From Terriglobia bacterium (GTDB lineage Bacteria; Acidobacteriota; Terriglobia; Acidiferrales; UBA7541), in NCBI GenBank assembly GCA_023512135.1, contig JAIMAG010000001.1, forward strand, positions 62,001 through 126,000: 64,000 bases of DNA. Direction: 5' to 3'. The notes beneath the pieces are model-generated. The model had not been told where the DNA came from. It searched no databases and saw nothing but the letters and a program-made list of their open reading frames with translations. Positions 3,107 through 15,725 of the stretch are shown here, piece by piece. Every line of letters begins with the position of its first letter. Positions within the stretch are counted from its first letter, which is position 1. A program made the position numbers and the translations under genes.

Positions 3107-3498
3107 CGCGGGCCGGACGATGGCACGGGGCGCGAGGCTTTCCGTGTGTCGGTGCGGGCAGAAGCCTGCGGCCCGGTGCTGCTTCGCTGAACCCGCATTG
3201 CACCGCTGCCTTCAGCGGCTGTGCGGGTAGAAGCGTGCCGGACGCACCGGCGAAACTCACAGTTCGAACAGCGCGACCAGCGCAATGTTCCGCAACTGCT
3301 GGCGCACGGTGCCGTGGCGCAGGAACCGTCGTGCGGAGGATTGCTGCGCATGGCTCTCCTGCACTGCCGCAGGGCTTCGGGGAGAAATGGAGGGGCCCGC
3401 CAGATGCCACCCGGGCCGGGGGCAGCCCCCGCACCACCCCTCACCGAGCTATCCCTGCGGGCCCCAGACCGATGCACGTGCCGGAATTCCGGCAGCGC
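3107..3498. other. Intergenic region, no convincing gene
   Basis: About 390 bases between convergent genes. An 18-base direct repeat with two mismatches (3152-3169 and 3221-3238) is separated by 69 bases, and a small perfect hairpin lies at 3203-3218. A minus-strand frame ending at 3257 reads as a plausible protein tail (FLRHGTVRQQLRNIALVALF) but has no credible start, so it may be a decayed remnant. No terminator with a U-run was found. Confidence 0.4.
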
Positions 3499-12635: not shown

Positions 12636-13694
12636 TCAGCGGGCCGCAGCGGCTGAGGCACGGCGCACGGGCTGCAGCACCTGCTCGGCGAAGCGTTCCA
12701 TCTCCTCGAATTGCGGGCTGAACTGCAGCAGGAGCAGATCCACGCCAGCCGCCTCCAGCTCAGCGATGCGTGCGGCCACCTGCTCAGCAGTGCCCACCAG
12801 TCCGGTGCGCAGGCCGCGGTTGGAGACCGAGTAGTCTTCCAGCGAGACGCGTTGCTCGAGTTTCGTATTCGCCAGCCATTCCTGATAGTTCGCATAGCCG
12901 GCGGCGGACTGACGCACGTCGGTGATGCGGTCGAGCTCTTGGCGGGCTTCCGCTTCGGTGGAGCGCAGGATGACGAAGCCGGCCACGCCGAACTGCAGCG
13001 GCGCGAGCCCCCAGCGTTCGCGTCGGCGACGCATATCGTCGATTTTCACGCGGAGCCGCTCGGGGGGATCGCCGTGCATCAGGTAGGCGTCGCATTTCTG
13101 CGCAATCAACTGCTTGGCCGCTTCCGACTCTCCACCGGCGTAGAGCACCGGGCGGGGCCGACCGGGCCGGGGCAGCGGCTTCGGCTCCAGCACCGTGTTC
13201 TGCACGGCGTAGTAGCGGCCGGAATAGCTGAATACGGGCCGGGACCACACGCCGGTGACAATGTCCAGCCATTCCGAGGTGCGGGCATACCGGTCGTCGT
13301 GCTGGTCGAAGGGCGCACCGTATTGCCGTGCTTCTTCCGCCCACCAGGCCGAGACGACATTCAACGACAGGCGTCCGCCGCTGATGTGGTCGAGATTCGC
13401 GGCCTGCTTGGCGAGCAGCGCGGGCGGATGAAACGTCGGCCGCACGGCCACCATCAGCTCCAGGCGTGTGGTGACGGCAGCCAGTGCCGCCGCCGTTGTC
13501 CAGGCTTCAAGCGAAGGGGCATGGATGCCCTTGATGTCATTCAGATTCAGTTCGGCAATCAGGGTGAGATCGAAGCCCAGCTCTTCACTGCGCTGCGCCA
13601 GCCGTCGGACGTAGGCCCAACTGGCCTCCATCGCTTCGTCTTCGACGTTGCGCAGCCATCCGCCAAACACCGGCAGCCAGTACCCGAATCGCAT
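12636..13694 (-). CDS. Luciferase-like FMNH2-dependent monooxygenase (SsuD/SfnG group)
   Basis: A 352-residue LLM-class flavin monooxygenase. Diagnostic stretches are GFDLTLIAELNLNDIKG, VRPTFHPPALLAKQAANLDHISGGRLSLNVVSAWW, DQHDDRYART and RTGLVGTAEQVAARIAELEAAGVDLLLLQF. These match the alkanesulfonate/dimethyl-sulfone monooxygenases, which release sulfite for sulfur scavenging with reduced flavin from a partner reductase; no reductase gene is seen here. Its ATG overlaps the stop of the ATP-grasp gene by one base, so the two are translationally coupled. The substrate is unproven: a sulfonate/sulfone, or a peptide if the cassette makes a modified peptide. Confidence 0.85.
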   Translation of the reverse strand: MRFGYWLPVFGGWLRNVEDEAMEASWAYVRRLAQRSEELGFDLTLIAELNLNDIKGIHAPSLEAWTTAAALAAVTTRLELMVAVRPTFHPPALLAKQAANLDHISGGRLSLNVVSAWWAEEARQYGAPFDQHDDRYARTSEWLDIVTGVWSRPVFSYSGRYYAVQNTVLEPKPLPRPGRPRPVLYAGGESEAAKQLIAQKCDAYLMHGDPPERLRVKIDDMRRRRERWGLAPLQFGVAGFVILRSTEAEARQELDRITDVRQSAAGYANYQEWLANTKLEQRVSLEDYSVSNRGLRTGLVGTAEQVAARIAELEAAGVDLLLLQFSPQFEEMERFAEQVLQPVRRASAAAAR

Positions 13695-14653
13695 CAGCGC
13701 GCCTCCTGTTCGAGGTAATCCACCAGCCGGGCGTGCGGGTCGAAGCCGACCACACGAACGGCGTCGGCAACGAAATTCGATAGGGCGTTGATGTCGTAGA
13801 ACAGCCGGCGGCCATCGCGGTCGTCCACCAGATACTCCACGCCGCCGACTTCGATCCCGGCAGCGTGCAGGATGCGCTCGACCGCAGCGATCGTCTCCGG
13901 AGGCGGGGTGCAGGCTTCGACTCGCAGGCCGGTGCGCGGGGCATCGGCAGGACAGGCCGCACGTTCGAGCGGGCGGCCGTCGACAGTCTGGCAGATATCG
14001 GCGGGGCAGAGGTTGTAGCCTTCTCCGGAGAGATGGATGCGGATGGCGTAGAGGAATTTTCCTCCCAGGACCTCGACGCGCACGATGCAGCCGTCGCGGG
14101 CCGGGATGTACTCCTGCACCAGCGCGGTGTGGTCGGGACCGAGCTGGAGCTGGCCGGAGGCCGCCGCCCGCTCGATTTGCTCCGGGTGGTCGAAGCGAAC
14201 AATGCCGACGCCGCTGCCGCCGATGTTGGGCTTCACGATCACCGGGAAGCGCAGCCCGCGTGCGGCTTCGGCGGCCTGCGCGGGATGGTGGATGACGCGC
14301 GCGGCCGGGTAGGGCAGCCGGAGCGACTCGAGCAGGGAGAGCTGTCGCGCCTTGGAGATTTCCACGGCGAAGGCACGTGCGCCGTTCACCACGCGCACTC
14401 CCTGGGCTTCCAGGTGCGCCAGAAAGTGCAGCGTGTAGAAAATGGCGTGGCCGTGGCCGCGCGTCCAGGCCGAGGGACTCATGCGGTTGAACAGCAACGC
14501 GTAGCTGCCGTTGCGGGCGGCGATGCTGTAGCGATGCTGCGCCGCGTTGAGCTTCTGGTACGGCGTGCCGCGACGGTCCAGCTCGGCAAACAGCGGGCGG
14601 AACCAGTCGGGATGCTCGTAGAAGATGGCAATCGGTTTTGGCAGGCTCGGCAT
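13694..14653 (-). CDS. ATP-grasp ligase (RimK-like), substrate unknown
   Basis: A 319-residue ATP-grasp protein: N-terminal pre-ATP-grasp domain (IAIFYEHPDWFRPLFAELDRRG), nucleotide-binding core with FPVIVKPNIGGSGVGIVRF (glycine-rich lid), VQEYIPARDGCIVRVEVLGGKFLYAI, and a C-terminal metal site in FYDINALSNF. Enzymes of this fold ligate carboxylates to amines or thiols through acyl-phosphates, including RimK, lysine-biosynthesis and graspetide ligases. It has a GGAGGA ribosome site, follows a terminator hairpin and the Cys-rich peptide gene, and is coupled by a one-base overlap to the flavin monooxygenase. No close functional relative is recognised. Confidence 0.85.
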   Translation of the reverse strand: MPSLPKPIAIFYEHPDWFRPLFAELDRRGTPYQKLNAAQHRYSIAARNGSYALLFNRMSPSAWTRGHGHAIFYTLHFLAHLEAQGVRVVNGARAFAVEISKARQLSLLESLRLPYPAARVIHHPAQAAEAARGLRFPVIVKPNIGGSGVGIVRFDHPEQIERAAASGQLQLGPDHTALVQEYIPARDGCIVRVEVLGGKFLYAIRIHLSGEGYNLCPADICQTVDGRPLERAACPADAPRTGLRVEACTPPPETIAAVERILHAAGIEVGGVEYLVDDRDGRRLFYDINALSNFVADAVRVVGFDPHARLVDYLEQEAR

Positions 14654-14663
14654 GACGTCCTCC

Positions 14664-14701
14664 GGAAAAAGAAAAAGGCCGCTCGCGAACCGAGCGGCCT
14701 T
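14664..14701 (-). terminator. Terminator hairpin between the Cys-rich peptide gene and the ATP-grasp gene
   Basis: Perfect stem of at least 9 bp (14677-14685 with 14691-14699, extendable to 11 bp), loop cgaac, followed on the minus strand by TTTTTCTTTTTCC. It lies 25 bases after the peptide stop and 11 bases before the ATP-grasp start, inside a transcript that is otherwise a continuous operon. It can therefore act as an attenuator or as a step-down for the genes downstream. Confidence 0.85.
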
Positions 14702-14725
14702 GGCAATTCTCGTCTGGATTACAGC

Positions 14726-14857
14726 TTAGGTGCCTTCCGCATCAGGCCTGCCCGGCTCGCGCACAAGCGGCATGCGCATGGCCATACAACACGGGCAGGT
14801 ACACATCGCCGCGCCCGTAGCGGAGAGCTGACGCAACGATGTGTTCTGAACTTTCAT
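14726..14857 (-). CDS. 43-residue Cys-rich peptide (leader peptide or RiPP precursor candidate)
   Basis: The frame reads MKVQNTSLRQLSATGAAM, then the cluster CTCPCC (residues 19-24), then MAMRMPLVREPGRPDAEGT. Four cysteine codons within six residues sit in the middle of a soluble peptide without a membrane segment. The start lies 34 bases after the trmD stop; the ribosome site is weak. Two roles fit: a cysteine-sensing leader peptide, where ribosome stalling at the Cys codons would prevent the terminator immediately downstream, or a precursor peptide modified by the adjacent ATP-grasp ligase and flavin monooxygenase. Homologues were not checked. Confidence 0.65.
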   Translation of the reverse strand: MKVQNTSLRQLSATGAAMCTCPCCMAMRMPLVREPGRPDAEGT

Positions 14858-14891
14858 CGCGGAAGAAGCATAGCGACGCCCGGCGCCGGCG

Positions 14892-15725
14892 TCAAGAGGA
14901 TTGCGGGTGCGTCCGTGCCGCTTCGGCTTGCAGTTCTTCGAGCAGCGCATGATCTTCTGCACTGAGCGCGGCCGAGGCCAGCAGTTCGGGCCGATTGCGA
15001 AGCGTTTTCGACAGCGCCATCTTGCGGCGCCAGCGACGAATCTGTTCGTGGTTGCCGCTGATGAGCACTTCCGGCACGCTCCAGCCGCGAAATTCCTGCG
15101 GGCGGGTGTAGTGCGGACAGTCGAGAATGCCGCCGGCCGCCGGCGAAGTAGTCGCCTGCGCCGGCAACGTTGCAGGCGCGCTGGCGGGTGCGGAGAAGGA
15201 CTCGAACAGGCGCGAGGCTTCATTGCCCAGTGCCCCCGGCAGCAGGCGAGTAACTGCGTCCACAATCATGGCCGCGGGCAGCTCTCCGCCCGAGAGCACA
15301 AAATCGCCCACGGAGATTTCGTCGGTGGCCAGGTGCTCGGCTACGCGCTCGTCCACGCCTTCATAGCGGCCGCAAATCAGCACCACACGTTCGAGGGCAG
15401 CCAGTCGTTGCGCCTCGGACTGGCGAAACAGTCGGCCGGCCGCAGACAGCAAAATGACGGCCGTGTGGCGGGAATCGATCGCCGGCCGCGACGCCCCGCC
15501 GAGCAACTCTTCGACCGCATCGAAGATCGGCTCCGGCTTCAGCACCATGCCCTCCCCGCCGCCAAAGGGACGGTCGTCTACGGTGCGGTGGCGGTCGCGT
15601 GCCCAGCGCCGCAGGTCGTGGACTTCGACCTGCACGAGCCCGGCCTGGCGGGCGCGCCGGAGAATGCCGTACTCGAGCGGTCCGCGGAAAAACTCCGGGA
15701 AGATGGTAAGGATGTCAAACCGCAT
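14892..15725 (-). CDS. trmD: tRNA (guanine-N1)-methyltransferase
   Basis: TrmD methylates G37 of tRNAs reading CNN codons. The 277-residue protein has [42 protein letters not shown] (SAM/tRNA loop), [13 protein letters not shown] and the trefoil-knot [30 protein letters not shown], all classical TrmD. It is followed by the C-terminal [33 protein letters not shown]. It sits in rpsP-khpA-rimM-trmD order. Confidence 0.97.

Follow-up and report, generated by a model that had tools for sequence, protein, structure and literature searches.

Attenuators of the trp/his type in Proteobacteria combine a cluster of regulatory codons in a leader ORF with RNA helices in the order 1:2, 2:3 and 3:4. For cysteine, leaders without terminators were predicted in Actinobacteria, with Rho suggested to act instead (PMC1262725), and leaders of this phylum were observed by ribosome profiling (PMC4633059). 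The polycysteine leaderless short ORFs of mycobacteria are described as translation attenuation (Canestrari et al. 2020, as cited in PMC13236596). Outside Actinobacteria, uORFC-8-2 was predicted in Rhodobacterales as a Cys attenuator with an intrinsic terminator; it has two tandem Cys codons at positions 14-15 and is found only before cysS and in this one alphaproteobacterial order (PMC8632094). For Acidobacteria, a survey of premature terminators from 2010 contains almost none with an assigned function (PMC2965389), and our search for literature on Cys attenuation in Acidobacteriota or Gemmatimonadota, with subscription papers mostly outside its range, returned no paper.

Here, we analyse a stretch of 64,000 nucleotides (the window) from a Terriglobia bacterium of the Acidobacteriota (GCA_023512135.1, contig JAIMAG010000001.1, positions 62,001 to 126,000), which carries the following features:

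14867-14895, minus strand: sigma-70-like promoter TTGACG-17-TATGCT, predicted from the consensus
14726-14857, minus strand: leader ORF of 43 codons with a leaderless-like start (ATG at 14857); product MKVQNTSLRQLSATGAAMCTCPCCMAMRMPLVREPGRPDAEGT, then stop
14786-14803, minus strand: Cys codon cluster TGT ACC TGC CCG TGT TGT, the proposed ribosome stall site
14792-14799, minus strand: segment 1, CCTGCCCG, inside the Cys codons
14744-14754, minus strand: segment 2, CGGGCAGGCCT, pairing with segment 1 (protector) or segment 3 (antiterminator)
14691-14700, minus strand: segment 3, AGGCCGCTCG, 5' arm of the terminator
14675-14685, minus strand: segment 4, CGAGCGGCCTT, 3' arm of the terminator
14675-14701, minus strand: intrinsic terminator stem-loop (3:4), AAGGCCGCTCGGTTCGCGAGCGGCCTT, with the 11-pair stem AAGGCCGCTCG-GTTCG-CGAGCGGCCTT
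13694-14653, minus strand: RimK-like ATP-grasp protein, 319 aa, the first gene under the proposed control
12636-13694, minus strand: SfnG/SsuD-like luciferase-like (LLM) monooxygenase, 352 aa, the second gene, overlapping the ATP-grasp gene

With the trp/his-type attenuators, the locus shares the codon cluster in a leader ORF as well as the helix order, but it differs in its cysteine codons, its sulfur genes, the start codon at the predicted 5' end and its occurrence in Acidobacteriota, and its ORF runs 19 codons past the cluster and itself encodes segment 2. The mycobacterial polycysteine ORFs resemble it in their Cys clusters, their shortness and their position before cysteine/sulfur operons, and perhaps in their leaderless-like starts. 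However, in the mycobacterial leaders the Cys run lies near the stop codon and no intrinsic terminator is reported (PMC1262725), whereas in the window the ORF continues for 19 codons past the cluster and has a terminator after it. The original prediction for this locus drew the mycobacterial parallel, but the two are not simply the same device. It also presented the locus as a further case outside Actinobacteria; with uORFC-8-2, however, a predicted Cys-codon attenuator with intrinsic terminator had already been published from there (PMC8632094). Unlike uORFC-8-2, the leaders described here have longer clusters, precede genes of sulfur assimilation or scavenging (in the window an ATP-grasp gene) and belong to other phyla. 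As far as could be found, a trp-type cysteine attenuator would be new to Acidobacteriota and Gemmatimonadota. Rfam gave no credible match in the window leader or in the further leader loci, with SAM-I detected only in the Bacteroidota relatives examined, and an NCBIfam/Pfam scan of the leader returned no family.

Results

Organization of the leader and its operon

The promoter-like site matches the consensus at 9 of 12 positions, with 0.2 such sites expected in shuffles, and is the same in a sister species of the same genus (L008). Its -35 box overlaps the stop codon of trmD, which ends at 14892. Transcription is predicted to start at about 14860 and thus nearly coincides with the start of the leader ORF: the ATG at 14857 lies nine bases past the end of the promoter-like site, and the spacing between the -10 box and the ATG, 9 nt here, falls within 6-9 nt for eight leaders and is at least 13 nt for others. 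The position of four Cys codons within six at 14803-14786, as given in the original prediction, is exact (TGT 14803-14801, TGC 14797-14795, TGT 14791-14789 and TGT 14788-14786, corresponding to residues 19, 21, 23 and 24 of the peptide). The same applies to the terminator that it placed about 85 bases after the cluster: the stem-loop at 14701-14675 begins 85 nt past the last Cys codon, is directly followed by a T tract (14674-14665, TTTCTTTTTC) and is the sole terminator-like site within 1.8 kb.

The second gene had been assigned to the SsuD/SfnG group of monooxygenases. With 250 bits against the SfnG model (cut-off 383) and 181 against SsuD (cut-off 518), the protein stays below both equivalog cut-offs and, judged by these scores, is SfnG/SsuD-like and no assigned member of either family. 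The monooxygenase gene follows the ATP-grasp gene within at most 200 nt in 96 of 115 loci. On the 3' side of the regulated pair, rplS has its own strong promoter-like site (TAGGCA-17-TATAAT, window 12627-12599), so that the supply of L19 need not suffer from an attenuator located between trmD and rplS.

Folding of the leader RNA

Folded without constraints, the whole leader (14860-14667) has a minimum-energy structure that consists exactly of 1:2 and 3:4 (-86.8 kcal/mol; z = -2.87 versus shuffles), with the protector helix formed by 14799-14792 and 14754-14747. The original prediction had reported no extended antiterminator pairing, which proved wrong, as 14754-14744 pairs with 14700-14691 in a helix of 10 pairs with one bulged A. 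It had also held against an attenuator that the peptide continues for 19 residues after the Cys cluster. The observation is true, but since these residues encode segment 2, the antiterminator strand, the objection falls. A pairing of GCGG (14740 region) with CCGC had been tried as the antiterminator of the window and was replaced by the 10-pair helix; this one is conserved between the window and the sister species, and its segment 2 serves the protector as well.

When folding was repeated with the last Cys codon covered by a ribosome, as the original prediction had proposed, the minimum switched from 1:2 plus 3:4 to 2:3 (-48.5 versus -47.0 with 3:4 forced). The terminator probability dropped from 0.96 to 0.11, and amounted to 0.97 with the ribosome at the stop codon. 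At equilibrium, this switch is narrow, with the probability dipping over the last Cys codon and a few codons beyond it. It also dips at three non-Cys codons well upstream, which counts against an attenuator, and, traced along the ORF, the terminator probability at equilibrium is an imperfect predictor. Folded at full length, more than half of the ATP-grasp leaders tested still prefer the terminator at equilibrium, and these leaders would therefore depend on the antiterminator forming first during transcription. Given the small energy gap and the dips at non-Cys codons, folding alone is unconvincing and it is conservation that convinces. Comparison with the sister species L008 shows no change in any of the four segments or in the Cys codons, but drift in the linker and in the N-terminal half of the peptide; the leader ORF is homologous there and differs by 10 non-synonymous and 2 synonymous codon changes, none of them in a Cys codon.

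Recurrence before the ATP-grasp gene

Six frames of the window contain at least four Cys in six codons versus 1.7 expected, and a Cys cluster by itself therefore proves nothing. We collected ATP-grasp homologues from three sources, namely 61 related genomes, 396 genomes of the phylum and a scan of named genomes, and counted a leader if a short ORF with at least four Cys in eight codons and a downstream terminator lay within 400 nt upstream of the gene. Such a leader is present at 29 of 120 ATP-grasp loci versus 1 of 487 control genes from the same loci, with the limitation that related loci are not independent, and extends, by kinship labels, over at least 10 families of the phylum. Cys clusters are found in all 47 leaders compared, and apart from them most peptides are unalike (for example MNSDAITILIQSSFDRTRVPMCCCMCYRCTNERTGPDID in L031, MTHQSLAMSMCCCLTTCGRGLAS in L058 and MQSYCANPASASNMAMAMCMCCCMGRATGDA in L035, each followed by a terminator). 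The absence of the leader from about three quarters of the ATP-grasp relatives counts against an attenuator. A search of the phylum with the pattern GAGCGG..CCGCTC..GAGCGGC was unspecific, and only the known L031-type site was recognised as a leader.

Besides, several Terriglobia copies at loci lacking a leader (L038-L046) have a conserved motif resembling TCATCTAAACTTGAGATATCAGATTCGAG in common, located about 130 nt upstream of the ATP-grasp start and perhaps the operator of another sulfur regulator. A MAG labelled Cyanobacteria (L077) and a genome of the window's phylum (L032) are identical in the leader and the sequence upstream of the ATP-grasp gene, which probably reflects a mislabelled or contaminated assembly.

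Antiterminators match their own terminators

Most leaders contain, shortly past the Cys codons, a stretch that pairs with the terminator's 5' arm in the same leader (matched pairs GAGCGG/CCGCTC, AGCGGG/CCCGCT, TGTGGGTG/CGCCCACA and GCGGACGATC/GATCGGCCGC). As the total fold energy compared with shuffles is too blunt a measure in GC-rich RNA, we used a comparison of own and swapped arms instead. Over 47 leaders, the summed duplex energy of the antiterminators was -805 kcal/mol with the own arms versus -644 +/- 17 kcal/mol with swapped arms (z = -9.5; 0 of 20000), and 22 representatives gave z = -7.0. The control, for which 47 terminators at a time were sampled from 221 ordinary ones in the same loci, stayed at z = -0.11 +/- 0.93. 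The protector, i.e., the Cys-codon region paired with segment 2, likewise preferred its own partner (z = -4.5).

Codon choice points in the same direction: TGT makes up 163 of 232 Cys codons (70%) in the leaders versus 184 of 689 (27%) in the long ORFs of the same loci, and its share exceeds that of the own locus in 46 of the 47 leaders. The less common synonymous codon would be expected where stalling matters; alternatively, its use may avoid stable structure.

Leaders before other sulfur genes

Searches for cysK and PAPS/APS reductase, together with a scan of the fetched loci, revealed Cys-cluster ORFs with a terminator before cysK (L253, L258, L260), cysH (L284, L295, L296, L301 and L304, with Cys runs up to seven), cysD (L298, L305) and the gene of a uroporphyrinogen-III methyltransferase (siroheme synthase; L307). 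The gene names of L284, L295, L298 and L307 were confirmed by NCBIfam. These sulfur-gene leaders occur in Acidobacteriota and Gemmatimonadota. In five Gemmatimonadota MAGs (L074, L104, L113, L118, L124), the ATP-grasp/monooxygenase operon is headed by an SsuE-type FMN reductase with the leader in front of it, and likewise in one Eisenbacteria MAG (L088), with the reductase family checked for L124 and L088. In the SsuE/SsuD pair, the flavin reductase serves an FMNH2-dependent sulfur-releasing monooxygenase. By analogy, a flavin reductase at the operon head would fit such a role of the monooxygenase here.

In the scan of the fetched loci, few leaders with at least four Cys lack an obvious sulfur gene downstream (one in L114, two in L127 and one in L106). 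The leader in L106 (3993-4200) is followed by a terminator and a TlpA/ResA-like redoxin gene, which lies about 1.8 kb upstream of the co-directional ATP-grasp gene. A second Cys leader with terminator (MKTFTQIACRCCRMCCCMPVAARV) is located at the locus edge of L305, on the minus strand near 3464. In the window's own genome, PAPS reductase had no match, and none of the cysK-like and sulfhydrylase-like genes examined is preceded by a convincing Cys leader, which counts against an attenuator; among 14 parsed loci of sulfhydrylase-family genes in relatives, there was no Cys leader either.

SAM-I riboswitches and poly-Cys ORFs in Bacteroidota

A SAM-I riboswitch (72-82 bits) is present in five copies of the operon from Pontibacter/Nafulsella, and shortly past its 3' end begins an ORF that closes with a run of 6-7 Cys codons. 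The combination independently argues for sulfur control of the operon. In a SAM-I survey of the class, a Cys-clustered ORF follows the aptamer at all six MetY loci (L176, L186, L326, L333, L337, L343), of which L176 and L186 are weak with two Cys each, and at one ATP-grasp gene (L350); L146 and L149 are further cases before the sulfide-fixing MetY (O-acetylhomoserine sulfhydrylase). The single occurrence among about 37 metH loci is probably due to chance. The Cys codons of these Bacteroidota ORFs are clustered or consecutive, up to seven, and often end the ORF. The poly-Cys leaders examined here have no clear intrinsic terminator and most of the gaps are C-rich; Rho or translational control is possible for them.

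Discussion

Our data suggest, with a probability of about 0.9, that the element in the window is a transcription attenuator of the trp/his type, mediated by the ribosome and responsive to cysteine, and the ATP-grasp and monooxygenase genes are probably switched on when ribosomes run short of cysteine. A short ORF with clustered codons follows a predicted promoter, an intrinsic terminator lies between this ORF and the first gene, an alternative antiterminator uses the 5' arm of the terminator and has comparative support, and related genomes carry the leader before genes of the matching pathway (cysK, cysH, cysD). The attenuator reading of the original prediction is thus supported by the recurrence of unalike Cys-cluster ORFs before sulfur genes, by antiterminators fitted to each terminator and by the codon bias.

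According to this model, RNA polymerase would start at the promoter 14895-14867 and a ribosome would start translating the leader ORF directly at the 5' end or close to it. With plentiful charged tRNA-Cys, the ribosome would clear the Cys codons and segment 1 would re-pair with segment 2 behind it; the 1:2 helix would leave segment 3 free for segment 4, and transcription would stop at the terminator. When charged tRNA-Cys runs low, a ribosome stalled on the Cys codons would cover segment 1, so that 2:3 could pair and block the terminator, and the ATP-grasp/monooxygenase genes would be transcribed, presumably for sulfur scavenging.

RiPPs of the graspetide type are the subject of PMC8939145. 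The leader ORF could encode a functional Cys-rich peptide, either a RiPP precursor for the ATP-grasp ligase and the flavin monooxygenase or a small metal- or redox-binding protein. Some RiPP clusters indeed show a small Cys-rich ORF beside ATP-grasp and oxygenase genes. However, the peptides have no conserved core sequence tied to the enzyme and are mostly unalike outside the Cys clusters, and 10 of the 12 codons changed relative to L008 are non-synonymous, with the Cys codons spared. Moreover, the same type of leader precedes cysH, cysD and cysK without an adjoining ATP-grasp gene, a terminator with a matching antiterminator follows the ORF, and most relatives have the operon without the ORF, which together make a functional peptide very unlikely.

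The location directly after trmD, with a promoter overlapping the trmD stop codon, would also suit a constitutive terminator that insulates the operon from trmD readthrough and has a Cys-rich frame above it by chance, all the more as Cys clusters are common in the GC-rich sequence of the window. This is scarcely credible in view of the co-occurrence of ORF and terminator, which at homologous loci and before other sulfur genes far exceeds that in controls, the own-arm antiterminator pairing that ordinary terminators lack, and the Cys codon bias. It is similarly improbable that the leader mainly affects translation of the ATP-grasp gene or terminates transcription through Rho, the proposal made for Actinobacteria, and that the intrinsic terminator is secondary. 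For this speak the mycobacterial Cys leaders without terminator, for which Rho (PMC1262725) or translation attenuation (PMC13236596) has been put forward, and the Bacteroidota leaders with their mostly C-rich gaps. In the window, however, a strong intrinsic terminator and a matching antiterminator are present and both are conserved.

Beyond the single locus, we lean towards the view that attenuation by Cys leader peptides is widespread, though largely undescribed, for sulfur assimilation in Acidobacteriota, Gemmatimonadota and relatives, and that in Bacteroidota it stands in series with SAM-I as a two-input switch for SAM and cysteine. As far as sequence comparison can tell, the attenuator reading would give a function to an acidobacterial attenuator, with a mechanism open to single-mutation tests. 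It suggests that, in phyla abundant in soil, the cysteine supply is sensed via charged tRNA-Cys at cysH, cysD, cysK and loci of sulfur scavenging. For the operon of ATP-grasp and luciferase-like monooxygenase genes, found in Acidobacteriota, Gemmatimonadota, Planctomycetota and Bacteroidota, the link to sulfur limitation would make its substrate searchable. In addition, the signature of Cys cluster and terminator may serve as a marker for further sulfur genes in these mostly uncultured genomes.
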